Shown here one piece after another: positions 15,825 to 61,692 of a stretch of 64,000 bases of DNA. The stretch is from the NCBI GenBank assembly GCA_963931925.1, contig OZ007569.1, positions 14,637,545-14,701,544 on the forward strand. Reading direction: 5' to 3'. The notes under the pieces are model-generated. The model made no database searches, was not told the origin of the DNA, and worked only from the letters and a program-made list of their open reading frames with translations. Source of the DNA: Onchidella celtica (Eukaryota > Mollusca > Gastropoda > Systellommatophora > Onchidiidae). The translations under genes were made by a program, and so were the position numbers. Every line of letters begins with the position of its first letter. Position 1 is the first letter of the stretch.

Positions 15825-17690
15825 CAGCGATGTTCAACTATATCTCTAACTGTTCATCACCTAATTGGATTAACATTTTTTTTTAAATCTTAGATTATAG
15901 ATGACCTTGATTAAACAAATCACTAGAAGATGCGCCAGTCTTATAACAGCTGTGAGTATGGGACTACTGTTCGGGTTCTTTGATAAGAATTAAATCTCTT
16001 TAGCTCTCTGGTTCAGACGTAAATTTATGATTTCGTAAAACTGTTTTCTTAAGGTAACCATTACTGTACTTGTTTCAAGCTGTCCATGCATTGTTGGAAA
16101 CGCAGTTACAGCAACACATAGGAAATTACTCCCACTTAACACAAAAACGTCCAACTCGTCTTCATAATTGCCTGAGGATGTCCCGGACTTCTTTTTGTCT
16201 TCCGCAAATGCAAACTCGTTATATTGAATTAGGAAATGAATGAACAGAAACAAAAAGTGGGTTGCGAGAGAGATTTTTTATTTACGATGACGAGAAAGGA
16301 AGAAATTAATCTGTGGAAAACAGCAAAACTTGCTAGTCAAGCGGATCACTATAGGTAAGAAATTAAATAATATTGCATAGTGTAGGTGAATATAATGGGC
16401 AGAAAAGAAATAGGGAGAAGAAACGTGCACTGTTATTGTTCCAAGCCGCTGCTTAAGAAAACAACTGAACTTGATGCTTATGGATATTGTGTTTTGAGAG
16501 GTTTGAACGCGTTCAGATGAGAGAGATGGGACATCTGAGGTGGAGAACACAAAAATGTGTAGGATAGTGATCGTAACAGGCCATGCCATTTTATATCTCT
16601 CCTGGCGTAAGTTTGCTTTTGACGAAATTAACATTTGAGAAGGCGTTGCAGTACGCTTCTGAATTTCCTTACTCCCATTACTGCTGTTAACTTTCAACCC
16701 TTTAATGTTATTGTTGTCGTTGTTGTTGTTTGCTCTTGTTGTTTTTGTTGTCGCTGTTGTCCACGCTGTCACTAATGTTACAGATTTGGCAATAGTTTTA
16801 TCATAAACACCATTGTAAGTTTTGTGACCAGGCAATTTAGTTGCTATTCAGTGCGTCGTCAAATCTACAACACAATTCCGCAAGAAAAATTACCCATAAT
16901 ATAAGGAATACTTAAGTCTAGAGCCAAAAATAGAAATACGCCCATTGGATCGATACTCGAAGATTGAAAAGTTAAGTAATACATTATTGTCGTCAATCTG
17001 TTACTATAACTGGCCTGGGGAGACCAGTCTTCTGAACCCAAAGACGTTATTGATTTATGGTGAGAATATGGACCAATGAGAATTAACTGACTGCTTTCTG
17101 AGCTGAGCTGTTTATGATGTATCAATGCACCAAGGACAGGTGGAATAAAGTATTATGATTTACTATGGCATAATGACACCACACACAAGCATTACTCCAT
17201 ACAAATCGCGACTTAGTGCTTGTTTGTTCCAATTCCACTTTTTGCACAAAAGAGAAATTCGACGTTAAGCGTGCTCGGCTCCTCTATTGTGGTAAGGAAC
17301 TAGCATAAATCGGAAATGTGAAATCGCTTGATAAGTGCCACAGTGCATTTGAAACAAGAGTCAGAGTGTGCATTTATCGTACCTCTTCTACATGCCAAAA
17401 GATCTCCAGTTTTTTTAGAAGATGGAGATACAACAAACAAGAACTATGGTCGCAAAATTGTGTCTGCTGCCTTTGGGATTTAACTTATCTCAACTATTTT
17501 AGTTGTGTACGTTCTTTGGGTGTCGATACGGATCCACGCACTGTGTGACACCAAAATAATTATGGAACTTGAAAATGGTCAAATTTCTGAAAATGATAAT
17601 GTGACCAAGTAGATTAGAACTCCTTCTTGTGCATGGACGTGGACATTTGAGAATCTGTGGGAAAACAAACCATAGCCTTTCGTTAAACGG
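15825..17690. other. non-coding stretch with a GTT patch
   Basis: An interrupted GTT run lies at about 16708-16755. The minus strand is open for 185 codons (16835-16278). An internal Met near 16588 begins a hydrophobic, signal-peptide-like stretch, but no good splice donor follows and part of the frame is microsatellite-encoded Asn, so no gene is called. Confidence 0.4.
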
Positions 17691-20300: not shown

Positions 20301-23300
20301 GGTAGTGGAATAGACATCCTGCTAGCAGTGGTAATGGTAGTGATTTGTACTGGAAAGAATCTTGACAGGCCAAGATGAATTGCCAACTACATCAAAGAAA
20401 AACCTAAGGACGAAATTATTCTTATGCCTGGGAACATGACAAGGGTATCTCTTCTTTCAGCCTGGTATGCAGAATGAAATATTTTCCTAATTATCCTCTA
20501 ATCATGAACATTTACCTTATTATATCTGTCATGCTCCAGATGTGCACCCAATTCTTTATAAAGGTAAAGAAAAGTGAAAAAAAGAAGCTAGGAAAAACCT
20601 AAATTTAGAGTGAAACATCTGCTGTCATTTACTGCAGAAATAGAACAGTTTGAGAATCAGCCCATTGTGCACCAGGGACGTTTATTATGAGCTCTCCTAG
20701 GCTATACAGAGTTAATGATAAAACTAGGGTTAAAGCTGTAGAATTAATGATAACAATTATATCTCTAATGGGATTTTTTGGTCAGATTTGCGTATCTCTC
20801 AATGGCATGTTTAAATTGATTAACAGAGTATGGAGATTGTGCCTAGGTATATTGGCCATTTCATGTTAATCAATTATTTTACCCTTGGCCCAGATAAACC
20901 AATATTCCACTTCGCCCTGAATGAAGATATCACATTTCTATCTCGCATGGCAATTTTCTCGTTAGGCCTATCATCCTCTGCGATTTTCACATCAGCCGCA
21001 TGATTCATGCTGACGCCAGTCTCACGACACTGCAGCTCATTGCCCCATTCTTGTTTTTTTTGGACATTTCCATGGAAATGATGTTTTGTTTTAGAAAATG
21101 GACGAGCATGAAGACGTCCATCTTTATTCATGAAGATTGAATCGAACTAGTGTATAATTCTTCAGACTCAGCCTGCTTTTTTTTTTGATTTGGAGTTTGG
21201 GGTCAGCAATGTCAGACCCCAGTGCATAAGATGGCGCCTTTGAAAGTTTGTGTTGCTAATTGCACTGAATGTGTCAAGATGTAATCTGCCGAGGACTCTA
21301 ATGCTAAAACGAGAGTACAACGTTTCTGGTTTGTTGTTTACGTTGTCGTCATTGCTGCTACTGCTCTTAATTTGGATACAAAACTCTAATACTCAAGATC
21401 TGCGCTATTTACATATTAAGTGTGTCTGGCGCTAAACTGAAAAGAGCTCCACATTTTCAAAGTGCAGAGACAAGCTTCATAGCAAGTACACATATCCTCC
21501 GTAATTATATTCATCACTCAGCCAGATTAACTATAATTCATCTGCGCTTTTAGAGTGTAAAATATGTGTTATGTGAATTATAAGTGTGAATTAATTGGGA
21601 AGGTACATTGACAATCACCTAGCGCCTAAAAAAAAAAATAATAATAATAATAATAACGCAGCACACAGATGCACAAGTAAAAAGACATGCCTTGAACCAT
21701 TCATACTGGAGTTAGATGTTCCTTTTTTCTAAGAAAGAAGGGTGAGACCAATTGAATTGAAACCGTGGACATTCTACAATCGTCATCGCTATCAAGTTGT
21801 AACTAATATTAATGGTGAGTGGACCATGAGTTTTGCCGTGGCCTAGTGTGATAGCTGTAGTCGAGGAAGCCTGCATTAATTATCTTCACTTAACATCATA
21901 TTTGGCCACAACCCTTTAATGCTTTCTCAGTGCTGTGTGTTAACAACAGCTGTGACGGAGGGAGCGGGTCTTTTTGTTACCATTCCTTTATGAACGTTTA
22001 CTGGGATTTCCTTACCCGAGGCTGACTGAAATTGAAAAATTCGAATGAATCAAATATGATCTGTAAATATTTCCTAGTTTGTGACTGCATTTAGCTGTTC
22101 TGTGCAAGTAAGTCTAAACAGTAAGCAAAACCCCAGAAAATAGTGCATCATGGCTTAAGATACTAAAAGTGGCTGTGCAGTGTGACCCGTGAACCTCACC
22201 TAGAACATCACAAGGACAAAATGTTTAGCACATGGAGTACATACAATGGATGACATCACCTGCTGTCAGCTACTGTGTCACAGGGCATCAATAATGCATG
22301 AGCGGATTGTATCATTTCACTGAAGAAGCTGACGTTGCCGCGGCCATCATAAATATTGTTCTGGTCCTCATGCGCAGATTTATTTTTTATGTAGGGCTCG
22401 CATTTGTGGTAAGACAGGTGTGTCCTCAGATACTGTCAATTTTTGTCACGCCCGACATTTTGTTTATGATGAAAACCTGACACCATGCTGTAAATGCTCA
22501 AGGCAGCGAGCCTTAATAAAGACAAATCTCTACAACACATGCATCTCGATCCCCCTTTGCACTGACTCATAGATGCTCTTTTATGAATAAATTGAAAGAG
22601 CAATAATATTTGTAGACCTAACATCTCTTTCAATATGACCAATAACAGTAAGTTTAACGAGAGATGGTCTTGTGCTAGACAAGATCCAGATCTTCCAGTC
22701 TTGAACTCACCACGAGGGCAACAAATCCCTCTGCCTCACGGTCACAGTTCGCCCTGTGCTCATGTCAGGCGTCCTTTCTGTGGTCTTCACCAGTAGGTAA
22801 TCGTGCCGCTTAGTCTTTCACATTAGGTTCATTCTGCCATCATAATCCTTGGCAATCACTATTTGGCTAAGTTGTCAGTAAGATGATCTTGCAAACTTTC
22901 CAATGCTGAGTAATTTCAGGGGAAAGCGTGCTTTCATCGCTGATTCGTCCAGACAAGAAGATACTTTAGGATTAGAACGGCCACCCACCAAAAGACAGTG
23001 TGTTTGTTTGTTTGTTTTTTGCCTTTTTTTAATTCTCGATTATTTTCGGAAATCAGTTGCTGTTCCTTTATTCACTGTTTCGTACTATTTGCCTAGTCTT
23101 TTCATAGAGATAAGTAATGAAAATGGCTTTTAATAATACAGATTGGCTCTTGCGAAATAAGCTTTAAATCGGAGTGTCTTAACTGACCTGGCTCTACCTA
23201 GCAATCTGAGTAAATACGGGGGTGTTTTTTTTTCTTCTTATAAAATATAAGCTTCATAACATCATAAACGAACCTAACACCTTTGAAAATTGATTGATTT

Positions 23301-26300: not shown

Positions 26301-27589
26301 TAGACTTATGAGAATAGGGGTAACATTTAGTATTGATGTCAGCCTACGAAGGACCCCGACCCTCAAGCAAATTGATTCCATGTGTCTTTGCAGGTTGTTG
26401 TTATTTATTTGTATGTTTATTTGTTCAGTATACTTGAAGTCTTATGAGGCACAGTTCACACTATTTTCTTTCATTTTTGAGTTACTTCTTTCTGGAAATT
26501 TTAGCTTCCCCTGCATTCTACGTACATTTGTCATGGAAACATTTGGACCTCATTTTTAAACAGTACACTTTCATATTTTAGCTGCTACATCTTGTACTGC
26601 TACTCTGTTGGGCTCATGGGAGCCGCTCAGCTGATAACAGGGTAGCGAGCACCGCTGCACAGAAATACTCGTGTGGTTAACGCTTCTTTGCTGTGTAGTG
26701 TTCTGTGATCGATAAAAAAAAATAACCCACTATATTCACAAAGTTATATTATTTCTCTACCTTCCGCTAACCACGAAGTGTTCACGGTTGGTAACAAGAC
26801 ATGGTACCAGAGAGTATAGATGTACAGAGAGATCTCACTTCCGCCAAATCGTGAAACTAGGTCGCTGAGGTAAACAAGAAATTGAAGAATTTAAAGACAC
26901 TGTCTTCATTAAAGATCATGTGCATATCTGTTTACTGTGGTTTGTTCATATTTTTGGGCTGATTTAAACTATTTACAGCCGTTTGTAAGCTCTTAAGCCC
27001 CGTGGAAATGCACAAACGGATATTGTTTACCGCAGCGACCTACTTTCCGCTCCATGCTAACAATGGTTTCGCGGAGCCTCCCGTGTCTCGCAGTGCAAAT
27101 CGACCAATAGTGAAACCTCTCTATACATACATACTCGCTGATGGTACCTCGTCACTCAAGTCTCGGTTAATCATATTTTATGCTCACTGTTAACTTGAGA
27201 AGACGAGAGGGGGAAATGTTACTGTTTTTATATCAGTCTAGACCCAAAACAAAGAGAGACAAAAACGTTTTCGCTTTAAGCGGACTGAAAAGTGAAGAGA
27301 CTAACCATAATAGAAAAGACTGTGTTTACTATGCACACTTCCTAAAACTCCTACGCAAATCATGCGGATGGATATTACCCCATAATATTGCACGGGTATA
27401 AACACGGTAGTCCCAGACGTTCAAATATCAAGCACAAAATTACTGTTTGTCTCCATCGACTGACACCATCCCCCTTCAGCTGGGAACTGAACTGCGATTT
27501 GCAGGAGCGGACGGGATGTTTGGGTGGATAAATGGTTTAGAAGACTTACTTGCTCTCTTTAGTTTTAACCACGTTAAAGGAGTCAAAGA
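20301..27589. other. long non-coding stretch, nothing recognised
   Basis: About 7.3 kb without a recognisable gene, RNA gene or mobile element. Small features only: TAGGCCTA at 20963-20970, a short ATA run at about 21639, a GTTT run near 23000, and a G-rich run at about 25460-25485. The longest open frames are under 95 codons. Confidence 0.5.
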
Positions 27590-49800: not shown

Positions 49801-50479
49801 GTTGTTTTTGTTTTGTTGTTGTTTTTTTAGGTCACACCTATTTTCTAGACCCACAGAACTGAAAGGGTTCTGCGTAACATCTATGGCACAAGAGATGGCT
49901 TGATTTGATTGTCATATGTTTGGTGTTGATGATTACTATCAATTAGCTGAGCACTAATGAACTCTTCTCAGATCTTCGAATAAACGTCTGTCCATCGCCA
50001 TCTTACTATAATGAGGCTAGAGGGCGACCATGTTTGCACCTAGAATTTGATGAGTAGGCCTACGTGATAAAAAATTATGAAACTTTTGTATACTGCCCTA
50101 ATTTTTTACGATAAATGACATGGTGGATATACCTATTTTGGACAAATTCAATCTTTAGTATTTATTTGTTCAAGATTTTTTTTTTAACCGCATAAAAAGA
50201 GACACATGAGTAAAGTTGAGTAAAGTGGAAAAGTATAATGCGAAATTTCGTTCCTGGCCTCTCTTTAAACATTGCTGGCCAAAAATCAAATTTATTACAT
50301 CTGAGTATTCTATGAGGAAATGTGGTGCCACAACAAGTTCAATTCGTCTTTTCATCGAATCCAAGTGACATCGTTAATTTGACCTAAATCTAGATATACA
50401 GCCTGGGAATCTGTAAGATGTGTCTTTGCTCGGGTCGGCTAGTGAACTTAAAGGAAAAACGTTACACAAGAGCCACCAG
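43886..50479. other. long non-coding stretch with small microsatellites
   Basis: A C15 run lies at 44243-44257, short GTT runs at about 44467, 46031 and 49254, an ACAG/AC run at about 47860-47905, and a GA/GT run at about 48381-48420. TAGGCCTA lies at 50055-50062. No gene recognised. Confidence 0.5.
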
Positions 50480-54120: not shown

Positions 54121-54184
54121 AGGCTTGGGGATGGGATTTCGACACTTGATTAGATGAGAGCAATAAATTTTACAATTGAGACAA
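54121..54184 (+). repeat. 64-bp direct repeat, left copy
   Basis: Begins AGGCTTGGGGATGGGATTTC and matches 56820-56883 at 63 of 64 positions (T/G at 54171/56870). The two copies are in the same orientation 2.7 kb apart and flank the LINE fragment. Confidence 0.95.
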
Positions 54185-55202: not shown

Positions 55203-55251
55203 CTAGACTCTAGATCTAGATCTAGGCTAGAAATCTAGACTAGAGCCTAGT
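55203..55251. repeat. CTAG-rich cluster with foldback potential
   Basis: Eight CTAG tetramers occur within about 48 bp, including CTAGATCTAGATCTAGG. The left half can pair imperfectly with the right half. It directly precedes the 5' boundary of the LINE fragment. Confidence 0.7.
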
Positions 55252-55264
55252 CGTTTGGGTTTGG

Positions 55265-56662
55265 GCCTCTTTCTGCCTGGATTTGATTGAAAAACCATTG
55301 CATAAGCCTAGGCAGACTGATACCATCTTATTAGATTTCAGTAAAGCCTTCGATAAAGTGCACCATGCTAGTCTCTTGACTAAACTAAACCATTATGGAG
55401 TTAGAAACAGTAGGCCTACTTTGAAGTGGATTAAGTCTTTCTTAGAAAATAGGACACAGATAGTCGTCGTTGATGGAAAGTCATCCAATCCTGCAGCTGT
55501 TCTCTCGGGAGTACCCCAGGGTACTGTAATGGGCCCCTTACTATTCCTAGTTTATATTAACGATATGCCAAGTAAGATCTCTCCAGGCACTAAATTACGA
55601 CTGTTTGCTGATGATAGCCTCCTCTATAGAACAATAAACTCAAAAGAAGATACGGAAATTTTACAGAAAGATCTAGACAGTCTACAAAAATGGGAGAGGG
55701 ACTGGCATATGGAATTCCACCCCAATAAATGCCAAGTCCTGAGAATTTCAAATAAAAAACACAACATCACCTCAGACTAGGCCTACTTTATACACGACGA
55801 AAAATTGAGCGAAACACATGAGGCTAAATATTTGGGAGTTACATTGGACAGAAAACTTACATGGAACCAACACATTAATAACACATGTAACAAAGCAAAC
55901 GGTATACTAGCATTTCTAAAAAGGAACATCTCTAACTGCGATAGGAAAGTAAAAGAAAAATGCTATAACACCTTTGTGAGGCCCTCCCTAGAGTATGGCT
56001 GCACTGTCTGGGACCCCCACTGTCGAATAAACATAGACCAACTGGAAAGGGTCCAGAGGAGAGCCGCCCGCTTTGTGACAAATGACTATACTAGAAGTAG
56101 TAGTGTAAATAAAATGATGAGAGACCTCGAGTGGACACCATTAGAAGAGAGGAGAGCAAAAAACAAAGTAAAAATATTTTATAAAGGCAGGGAAGGAAAT
56201 ATCCATATCCCACTGAACCACCTCACCATTAATACCAGAGGCAACAGAAGGAATAATATAAAATATAACATCCCAAGCTCACGGGTTAACAGCCATCTTT
56301 ATTCTTTTTACCCTAATGTCATCAGGATGTGGAACAACCTCCCGGCAGAAGTCCAAACACTATCGTCTGCAACGACTTTCGACAATGAATTTAAGAACAT
56401 TATTATCCGTTGCAGCTACCATTGTAACTAAAGTGCGGGTTGTATTTCTGTGCACAATCTGGAAACCAAGAGATATTTATACCAGAGTTATATATACAAA
56501 AGACTTTATACAACTAATATATTTTTAAATGGTCTTAACATCTATGTAAGATTTTACCCTGTTTTTAGCCTCAGAGGAGCGACGTTGAGTCGCATATACT
56601 ATAGTGAAGTTGGGGAATCGTCTTATAGACGAACCAACTATAAAAGAAGAAGAAGAAGAAGA
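55265..56662 (+). mobile_element. CR1/Jockey-type LINE, 5'-truncated, reverse transcriptase with one stop
   Basis: A non-LTR retrotransposon copies its RNA into DNA at a nick. Here the reverse transcriptase core is plain: LLDFSKAFDKVHH (catalytic Asp), SGVPQGTVMGPLLF, FADDSLLY (catalytic Asp pair), NKCQVLRIS and AKYLGVTLD, then the family's C-terminal region (RVQRRAARFV, RMWNNLP) to the stop at 56429-56431. The frame starts mid-domain near 55265, with endonuclease and ORF1 missing, and is interrupted once by TAG at 55778-55780; the same frame resumes immediately. The roughly 230-bp 3' UTR has a stem-loop at 56609-56638 and ends in an AAG repeat (56643-56662). Dead on arrival by 5' truncation, but little decayed otherwise. 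The exact clade within the CR1/Jockey group is uncertain. Confidence 0.93.
56609..56638 (+). other. stem-loop in LINE 3' UTR
   Basis: TCGTCT (56618-56623) pairs with AGACGA (56627-56632) around a three-base loop. An outer GTTGG (56609-56613) pairs with CCAAC (56634-56638). It lies just before the AAG-repeat tail, the position where CR1/L2-like LINEs carry the 3' hairpin recognised by their reverse transcriptase. The role here is inferred from position. Confidence 0.6.
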
Positions 56663-56819: not shown

Positions 56820-56883
56820 AGGCTTGGGGATGGGATTTCGACACTTGATTAGATGAGAGCAATAAATTTGACAATTGAGACAA
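56820..56883 (+). repeat. 64-bp direct repeat, right copy
   Basis: Matches 54121-54184 with one mismatch. It ends within the target duplication of the neighbouring terminal-inverted-repeat element, so that element inserted at the edge of, or inside, this copy. Confidence 0.95.
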
Positions 56884-57822
56884 GTTTAGGGAGGAGTTCC
56901 GTATGCGTTACATGAAATTTTTACCGTTATTGAGTAAAGCTCACTGTTAGTGTTACACATTGTTCCAGACCTTATGACCAATTATCAATTCATGAACAAT
57001 AACATTTGTAACATACTTGCTAAGAAAACTAGTATAATCCAAGAAAAAAGTCTGAAGTGAGACAAAATCCGAAAACAGCTGCCATTTTGAAACTTACTGG
57101 GGAGAGGTCACAGTAACAGAATTTACAAAAAAGCGCGGCTGGCGAAGGTTTACTGAAACAAAACTTAGTATAGTGTTCACGAATTTAAACTCACAACACA
57201 TGGAATGGTCAGATGGACCTGGGGGTGTCAGGGTCTAGTCAGTTTGTATCAATGGGCGGTAGTCAGATTGACTAATCGGGCGAAAAGGGGCTGGGGTAGC
57301 CACTGGCGATCGACGTACACTCAAGTAGGCCCTCATTAGCTCAGATCGTGCAATCTCCGAGCAGCTGAAATCGGATTGTTTCGCTACTAAGCCGATTCAT
57401 AATTTTTTTAAAGTATGCAAATTAACAAGGTCGGTAACTTTCCGTAATTTAGGTCAAGGTACTGACTGTGAGTATGACTAAATTTTTACCGACAATCTGT
57501 TAACTCACCTGCGTGGCGAAATGGTTATGACATGTGATTTAGGAGCGAAAGGGTGTGGGTGCGGATCCGAGTATTGTCATGATTTATGATTATTATGTAT
57601 GTGTTCTCTTTCAGATGTTTCTAACGCAGAGAAATCGAGATGAAACGGAAGCGAGATAGAGACGGGAAAGAGACACATAAGAGATAGCGAAACATGCCAC
57701 GAAATATTTGTTTCTATTTCTTTAGTAAACCCCCCAAAAATACCTAGCCCCTTTTTTTTTCAACCCCCTCAAAATAAACCCTCTTTAGCATGTAACGCAT
57801 TCGGAACTCCTTCCCAAGTTTA
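56881..57822. mobile_element. 926-bp non-autonomous DNA transposon with TIRs and 8-bp target duplication
   Basis: CAAGTTTA occurs at 56881-56888 and again at 57815-57822, a perfect 8-bp target-site duplication. Inside, the left end (56889-56914, starting GGGAGGAGTTCCG) and the reverse complement of the right end (57789-57814, starting GGAAGGAGTTCCG) match at 24 of 26 positions without gaps. No transposase frame is present, so it depends on one elsewhere. An 8-bp duplication fits hAT, P or Merlin superfamilies; GG-starting ends favour Merlin-like or an atypical hAT, but this is not settled. The interior includes a tRNA-like segment. Confidence 0.88.
57507..57581 (+). repeat. tRNA-like segment (possible SINE head) inside the DNA element
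   Basis: TGGCGAAATGG (from 57514) fits an A-box, and GCGGATCCGAGTA (from 57561) is an approximate B-box, with near-tRNA spacing of about 47 bases. The intervening ATGTGATTTAGGAGCG resembles a Leu/Ser-type tRNA arm. It does not fold into a clean cloverleaf, so it is not a functional tRNA gene. Confidence 0.35.
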
Positions 57823-58339
57823 TTATGAAACATAATCGGTGCTAGAAATTACTGAAAAAGACTTCCGAACACACCTCAAACCACAGTAGGCCTAATGCCA
57901 GATTGCACCTGGCAGGTATCACAAAATGGAGTCCCTGCATCTCCCTTTTTATCTCAAAAATCAGAAGCAAAACCCCTGCACATATTATATATCAAATCAA
58001 AGCTTAAGACCTGGGACTAATATTTTATTAGAAAGATAGTGAAGGTCTTATTTTAGAGAAATTCAATTGTTGTTTAAAAATTACATCATTTTAATCAGGG
58101 GATGTAACTCTAAAAATATTTTTGATGTTGTTATTGTGGTGCTCTGATTTTGCATGTTGATTGTCAGAAATTTACTGTAACAACAAATTACTGAATTAAT
58201 GCAATAGTGACATGAACACACTTTTAGAACAGTTAAAGACAAAATAGAGAAACACATTCCGCATAAATCTTGAAAAGAGAAGACGAAATACTCAATCTTA
58301 GTATTCTGAGGCAATTACTACCTTTGGATTATCAAGGGA
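57823..58339. other. AT-rich non-coding stretch
   Basis: No gene or element recognised. It separates the repeat island from the CpG-richer block upstream of SEL1L. Confidence 0.5.
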
Positions 58340-60648: not shown

Positions 60649-61692
60649 GTGCTTTTAGTGCATCAAAGAAAGATACATTTGACAAAACAGATTCTCAGAA
60701 AGTTCCGCATGGAAATCAGGGTCAGGAACAGTTTCAGCATCAGCATGTGCCACAACAACAGCATCAGCATGTACCACAACAACAGTATCAGCATGTGCCA
60801 CAACAACAGCATCAGCATGTGCCACAACAGCAGCAGCAGCAGCAACAAGCTCAAGCCCCAGTACAGCCTTCGGATGATGGCCACTTAAAACAGACATCAA
60901 ATCAAGACTCTCCTGGCATACAAAGAAGCCAGCAGCATGAAGCTGGAGTTCCACACCAGCACCTTAAAGATTCTCAAAGCCAAATGGCACAGAATAATGA
61001 CCCTCAAAACAGTGCCATAAATCAACAAAAACAACAGATGCAGCAAAATAGTGGGCATTTTAATCAGCCAGACAGCCCACAGATGTCTCATACAGGTAGT
61101 ACAAATGAACAGCGGCAACAGCCGAATGATGAAGTTCACACTCCACCACCTCAGCAAAGTGGCCAAATGCCTCAGTCTCAACAAAATTCTCAAGACAGAA
61201 ATTCAGACCAGCAAGGTCAACAACCACATGTGTCTCACAGCCACCATAGTCAAAACCCTGGTACCACTGATTCAAATAAACGGATGTCTCCACACCATGA
61301 AAATCCATCTGATGCCCAGCCAGAAATAGAAACACCCCTTCAGGCTCAAAGACACCAAGTGCCACAACAACAGGACAATTATCAGCAAGAACAAGAGATA
61401 GATTCTGCACAAGATGAGTATCAGGAAGATGAAGAAGAAGCTTCTAGTGCTGACAAAGTTGAATTTCAGACCCCACACCCGACACAGTCACCACTGGGGA
61501 CACCCTCAGATTTTAGACAACAGGAGCAACAAAACGTGCAACATCAACAACATGAAGGCAAGGTACCCAGGCCAGAACTACCCAATGCTCATATTATGCC
61601 TCCCGTTTTGCAAGAGGAGGATGAAGATGAAGAGGAAGATGACACAAATGAAGAAGATGAAGAGAGAGAACCTACGCCAGAAGAAATTGAAG
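60649..61692 (+). CDS. SEL1L: SEL1L, long Gln-rich and acidic exon
   Basis: A 1044-bp exon, phase 1 at both ends (acceptor TTGGCAG, donor GAAG|GTGATG), adding about 348 residues to the lumenal N-terminus. In order: a short Lys/Asp start; four copies of the octapeptide QHQHVPQQ running into poly-Gln; about 200 residues rich in Gln, Asn, Ser, His and Pro; then an acidic end with long Glu/Asp runs (EEDEDEEEDD) up to EPTPEEIE. There is no Cys, so the fibronectin type II domain found in this part of vertebrate SEL1L is absent. The region is far longer and more Gln-rich than the acidic region of the human protein. Predicted disordered; its role is unknown. Joining to the next exon gives EEIEAERLFQQGEKL, which aligns with the human sequence just before the Sel1 repeats. 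Confidence 0.85.
60735..60849 (+). repeat. 24-bp coding minisatellite and CAG/CAA tract
   Basis: Four 24-bp units (60735-60830), each encoding QHQHVPQQ, differ by single substitutions (GTG/GTA, CAT/TAT, CAA/CAG). A CAG/CAA tract follows, giving eight further Gln codons overall. The mixed codons suggest the repeat is kept at protein level or is old. Confidence 0.92.

Follow-up and report, generated by a model that had tools for sequence, protein, structure and literature searches.

The LINE copy and its insertions

The window, i.e., the whole stretch of 64,000 nucleotides of Onchidella celtica DNA that was analysed, carries on the plus strand a 5'-truncated LINE copy with a reverse transcriptase domain (RVT_1; PF00078, 8.6e-24) at positions 55310–56662; the extent is that of the alignment to L010, another copy of the same family. 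Comparison with family copies placed the beginning of homology at AGGCAG, position 55310. The family search gave 1468 first-look candidates, of which the best 40 were scored, and the full-length matches were 98–99% identical. The reverse transcriptase domain and the large number of nearly identical copies mark it as a LINE retrotransposon, and the family is young and numerous. For detailed comparison, 29 other copies (L010–L038) were used; they were chosen by score, which biases the set toward copies without insertions. The window copy differed from their majority by four substitutions in approximately 1109 shared bases (0.4% divergence) and by two six-base gaps. The LINE copy is flanked on both sides by a 64-bp repeat, 98% identical (54121–54184 and 56820–56883). 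Overlapping TAGATCTA units are located directly upstream of it, at 55211–55224, and such runs are common in the sampled sequence.

Three six-base insertions had been claimed in this copy by the sequence-only reading, and two of them were confirmed. At 55411–55418 and 55778–55785, the window has TAGGCCTA, while all 29 other copies are gapped by six bases and have plain TA, within CAGTACTTTG at the first site and GACTACTTTA at the second; the family consensus, accordingly, does not contain the added bases at either place. At both sites, TA was changed to TAGGCCTA, and any rotation of TAGGCC can be taken as the added unit. A 406-bp query spanning both insertions (best 40 of 879 candidates scored) matched 39 other places, all 394 bases long and, hence, without both insertions. 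The insertion at 55778–55785 creates a stop codon, as had been proposed (TAG at 55778–55780). The reading frame of L010 is open across the region of this stop; one of the two insertions has cut short the reverse transcriptase frame of the LINE copy.

The third claimed site, CCTAGG at 55307–55312, contains no insertion and is the junction of flank and LINE. Homology starts at 55310, so CCT belongs to the flank and AGG to the LINE, and the appearance of GC duplicated around CTAG, by which this site had been explained, arose by chance where the truncated copy joins its flank. The search word for this site was found in 28 of the 29 copies (it was absent from L035), reading ACAACAGGCAGACTG in 27 of them and ACAACGGGCAGACTG in L025. 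One LINE copy, L023, has TA-GATTC-TA at approximately 2672–2678 of its locus where the others have plain TA; the seven added bases belong to the GA..TC class.

The same insertion in a second repeat family

A repeat found at L069, which comes from a cluster of TAGGCCTA sites on contig C1, gave 372 first-look candidates, and the best 40 were scored. Among 21 aligned copies of this family, two had CACTGTAGGCCTACACC and 19 were without the six bases; in one of these 19 (L134), the TA was altered. The TA site in question is labelled CTGTACAC. A whole-genome search with the pattern CAGCACTGTAN{0,10}CACCACCA across this TA (TGTACA) found 115 places. The 100 matches listed comprised 94 empty sites, three with GGCC, one with GGC, and two with other changes. 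When two TAs 1–8 bases apart were required at this position (whole genome, exact flanks), six places were found, with GGCC (three), GGC (one), G (one), and T (one) between the TAs. The G between TAs may be a duplication of GTA instead. Such length variants at one TA occurred in the L069 family, and none were seen at the LINE sites. Changes that do not duplicate TA also occur at this position (TACATCACC, TAGATCACC, and TAAACTACC), and L141 and L149 are copies changed without TA duplication. No intact element was present at this TA among 14 matches continuing with A, G, or T.

Two of the copies with an insertion, L069 and L138, share a base that is absent from every other aligned copy and probably represent one event. 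The nearest relatives of L123 and L139 are copies without the insertion, so at least two independent insertion events probably took place at this TA. Slightly against independence, one base is common to L069 and L123 (also to L131), and another, at the end of the alignment, is common to L069 and L139; as far as the shared bases indicate, the four copies with GGCC or GGC are likely, but no more than likely, to be independent. Most copies of the family (L069, L118–L137) also have TAGGCCTA at two further places, inside CTTGC...GCAAG inverted flanks.

Abundance in the window and in the genome

In the assembly (1.14 Gb, 43 contigs), TAGGCCTA was found at 57,668 places vs. 4,983 for the reversed palindrome ATCCGGAT used as a control. 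Since this control contains CpG, a Markov estimate was used in addition. In 127.8 kb, composed of the window and the LINE loci L010–L068 with repeated 16-mers masked, TAGGCCTA was seen 18 times vs. 0.98 expected (order-3 Markov); at most five of these 18 belong to the window, and two are the LINE insertions themselves. Three further TAGGCCTA words in the window, each a word match only, are located at 57887–57894 (2.1 kb downstream of the second LINE insertion), 50055–50062, and 20963–20970. The bare hexamer TAGGCC has an unremarkable count in the window (19 vs. a shuffle mean of 12.4, with 19 reached in 5 of 100 shuffles). Some of the 57,668 words are copies or chance occurrences; copies are included because TAGGCCTA is present inside members of the L069 family and of the LINE family.

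Two words built in the same way were also in excess in the 127.8 kb: TAGATCTA (47 vs. 2.1) and TACATGTA (13 vs. 2.7). The former is followed by G in 73% of cases and, hence, occurs largely in runs. The remaining palindromes of the form TANNNNTA were mostly at 0–2.4 fold of expectation in 145.9 kb, the highest being TACGCGTA (1 vs. 0.27). For inserts of three bases flanked by TAs, GGC/GCC (8.5 vs. 4.0), GAC/GTC (10.5 vs. 6.4), and CAG/CTG (17 vs. 12.6) were in excess, and the leading excesses also included TTA/TAA, AAA/TTT, and CCA/TGG. One-sided products of the TAGGTA type showed no excess (GG/CC is absent from the 14 two-base classes listed), nor did TAGG-N(1–4)-CCTA forms (1.0 vs. 0.8 each); both are products that ragged joining after excision might also yield, and their lack of excess counts against a footprint. 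One-mismatch neighbors of TAGGCCTA were in moderate excess (37 vs. 24.2, z 2.6), which suggests that older, decayed sites probably exist; any dating from these neighbors depends on this single z value of 2.6.

An all-against-all list of indels in the sampled loci contained 142 gap entries, 14 of them six bases long. Three entries were of the TAGGCC class and represent two events (one was entered in two phases), the window copy being part of the sample. No other non-tandem hexamer recurred, which weakly tests the expectation of the sequence-only reading that indels of this hexamer are commoner than those of other hexamers.

Site context and clustering

Sixty distinct TAGGCCTA sites, partly selected for the motif and partly mutually related, were compared with all TAs of the window. 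After TA, C followed in 41% of the sites and A in 12%; the baseline values were 18% and 32%, respectively. The TAGGCCTA sites, thus, prefer TAC/GTA contexts. The sequence TACTTT, present 3' of both LINE insertions and of a 185-bp inverted-repeat unit of the window, was considered as a general flank and rejected, as it is not general among the 60 sites.

The first 100 TAGGCCTA sites on contig C1 are clustered: 17 of 99 gaps were shorter than 1 kb, whereas random placement, drawn 5000 times, gave 4.0 such gaps on average and never more than 12. Of these short gaps, 12 were inspected, and at least seven of the 17 fall within the L069 family, tandem copies, or an overlapping pair. On a rough estimate, an even rate would very rarely give two insertions to a copy that differs by four substitutions, which points to bursts.

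Search for a source element

Transposases of the Tc1-like type (PF13358; best 150 of 500 candidates scored) include many with open frames of 337–376 aa and no stop. Tc1-like elements at L109–L112 have open transposase frames of 333–352 aa, which suggest recent activity. A search for mariner transposases (PF01359; best 150 of 355 candidates scored) listed 148 matches with open frames of at most 319 aa, many containing stops. The ends of four Tc1-like elements, A–D, were read: C and one end of B start with CA, and A and D do not. These CA ends would fit TACATGTA. None of these four, out of 150 PF13358 matches listed, has ends starting with GG.

An element with ends of the form TA|GG...CC|TA was not found by inverted-repeat and 13-mer scans of the sampled sequence or in the four Tc1-like elements. 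TA-flanked inverted repeats starting with TAGG or TAGGCC formed no family in the sampled sequence besides the 185-bp unit described below, and after low-complexity filtering, no 13-mer starting with TAGG recurred there with three different flanks besides forms of TAGGCCTA.

The 185-bp unit at 26858–27042 of the window (TA|GGTCGCTG...CAGCGACC|TA) was rejected as a source: all 20 copies compared have it embedded in a longer repeat, and a search by exact pattern for the unit's empty or scarred form gave no matches. The segment 26816–27084 belongs to this longer repeat (1878 first-look candidates, best 40 scored), with flanks conserved in 20 of 20 copies and with the 185-bp inverted repeat TAGGTCGCTG...CAGCGACCTA as its core.

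Origin of the insertions

A process adding this hexamer to two-base sites, as had been proposed, is real. Wherever empty copies prove the insertion, at two positions in the LINE and one in the L069 family, the target is TA. Among the processes offered by the sequence-only reading, we favor an excision footprint of a TA-inserting Tc1/mariner-like transposon, a reading that we hold to be somewhat more probable than all others together. The empty allele has one TA and the filled allele has two, and within the range of 0–4 bases between the TAs, the variants GGCC, GGC, G, and T were found at one site; it is this spectrum at one TA that favors a footprint. The minimal mobile unit of the same reading may also apply, since no source element was found in the sequence examined.

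A Tc1/mariner-type DNA transposon, moving by cut and paste, would insert at TA and duplicate it. On exit, staggered cuts would keep both TAs together with a few bases from the ends of the element, and the break would be sealed by end joining. If the element ended in GG...CC and two bases were kept per side, TAGGCCTA would result. Alternatively, a GGCC end could leave a four-base self-complementary overhang, which by self-annealing would also give TAGGCCTA and would explain the dominance of the full palindrome. In the window, one young LINE copy would have been hit two times by such an element and would carry a scar from each visit, the second of which broke the reverse transcriptase frame. The two insertions, the duplicated TA, the equal insertion at one TA of the L069 family with its spectrum of 1–4 bases, the target bias, and the clustering are observations, from which we infer the element, its ends, and the repair.

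Excerpts of several studies describe that Tc1/mariner excision leaves a duplicated TA with a few bases between (PMC7913693, PMC9976928, PMC7827188, PMC1925063). According to these excerpts, footprints of the pogo-type element Passer contain 0–4 bp (PMC9976928), and Stowaway/Osmar5 leaves terminal inverted repeat fragments of 1–4 bp inside TA duplications (PMC1925063); the transposase of ISY100, a member of the family, is described in another excerpt as cutting two bases inside the 5' ends (PMC2170065). The scars studied here resemble the footprints of Sleeping Beauty, Passer/pogo, and Stowaway/Osmar5 in the TA target, its duplication, and the 1–4 bases between, and Tc1-like transposases are present in this genome. 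They differ in that most have the full palindrome GGCC between the TAs, the source is a putative element, and the word is very numerous. The local hopping of Sleeping Beauty, given as 5–15 Mb in the excerpt available (PMC2874221), is much wider than the clusters of less than 1 kb found here. In piggyBac, the cut ends are sealed precisely through a four-base overhang that is self-complementary, which resembles the GGCC-end variant of our model; however, excision of piggyBac is described, in the part of the source consulted, as leaving no footprint (PMC3408717), while the scars here are six bases long.

The ends of Tc1 of C. elegans lead to an expected footprint of the form TA-CA-TG-TA, and the C. 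elegans Tc1 footprint was reportedly described by Plasterk in 1991. The word TACATGTA, in excess here, has this form, whereas GGCC and GATC would require other ends.

Direct insertion is the most serious alternative, which we give roughly one half of the weight of a footprint. Here, breaks at TA would receive TAGGCC (and, separately, TAGATC and TACATG) from an enzyme or a templated repair reaction, without a large element, and the four inner bases would be copied from a fixed template. It would account for the prevalence of one palindrome without TAGG-N-CCTA variants, for the common form of the three hexamers, and for the very tight clusters. It would also agree with the negative search for a source element in the sequence examined and with the small number of repeat families that recur at all in the 212.7 kb sampled. 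Two observations speak against it: the shorter inserts GGC, G, and T, found besides GGCC at one TA, resemble ragged excision, and two identical ends would give a palindrome as well. We know of no template for direct insertion of TAGGCC.

Mixed causes, with Tc1-type scars behind CATG and with GGCC largely spread within repeat families, appear improbable. The CA starts of element C and of one end of B agree with this explanation, as do the two additional TAGGCCTA places in most L069-family copies and the presence of the word inside LINE copies. However, repeated 16-mers had been masked before the count that gave 18 sites in 127.8 kb, and most of the fetched TAGGCCTA sites have their own flanks.

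An origin from a TAGGCC microsatellite, through replication slippage or expansion, is very improbable. Repeated units do exist, as TAGGCCTAGGCC was found 596/571 times vs. 6/8 for the control, and the frequent G after TAGATCTA also reflects runs. Nevertheless, the empty alleles consist of TA only and, therefore, offer no pre-existing unit to slip on, which disfavors slippage, and for the proven single insertions, it is refuted. Double units amount to approximately 1% of single ones which, on a rough estimate, is within a few fold of what repeated strikes at TA would give. An assembly or sequencing artefact is scarcely credible, considering that two unrelated families carry exactly this hexamer at TA and that one-mismatch neighbors are in excess, as decayed sites would give.

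Excision footprints, the explanation preferred here, are a known kind of scar, which takes in this genome an unusual, mostly uniform palindromic form and has a putative maker. Among the literature matches listed, there was no description of the motif or a genome-wide footprint survey of it. We propose, tentatively and with considerable doubt, that a perfect self-complementary four-base scar is left by an element of a new kind that targets TA, or by a scarring reaction in which no large element takes part. This proposal extends to at least three scar types (GGCC, GATC, and CATG), with GGCC represented by tens of thousands of words written in local bursts, and to a recent date, since a LINE copy diverged by 0.4% was struck twice. 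If the scars are footprints, the genome holds a countable record of jumps by departed elements, precise to the base, which could show at what rates, at which targets, and in what bursts they jumped. Scars of six bases preserve the reading frame or, as in the window LINE, place a stop. If no element exists, they would represent a sequence-specific insertion mutation of unexplained cause, occurring at high frequency.

Other repeats

A MITE-like element with ends near TAGTTCTTGTTTGTTC is common to positions 17214–17446 of the window and positions 2755–2995 of L040. At 60735–60841, the window contains a 24-bp tandem repeat, CAGCATCAGCATGTGCCACAACAA, which is possibly coding.
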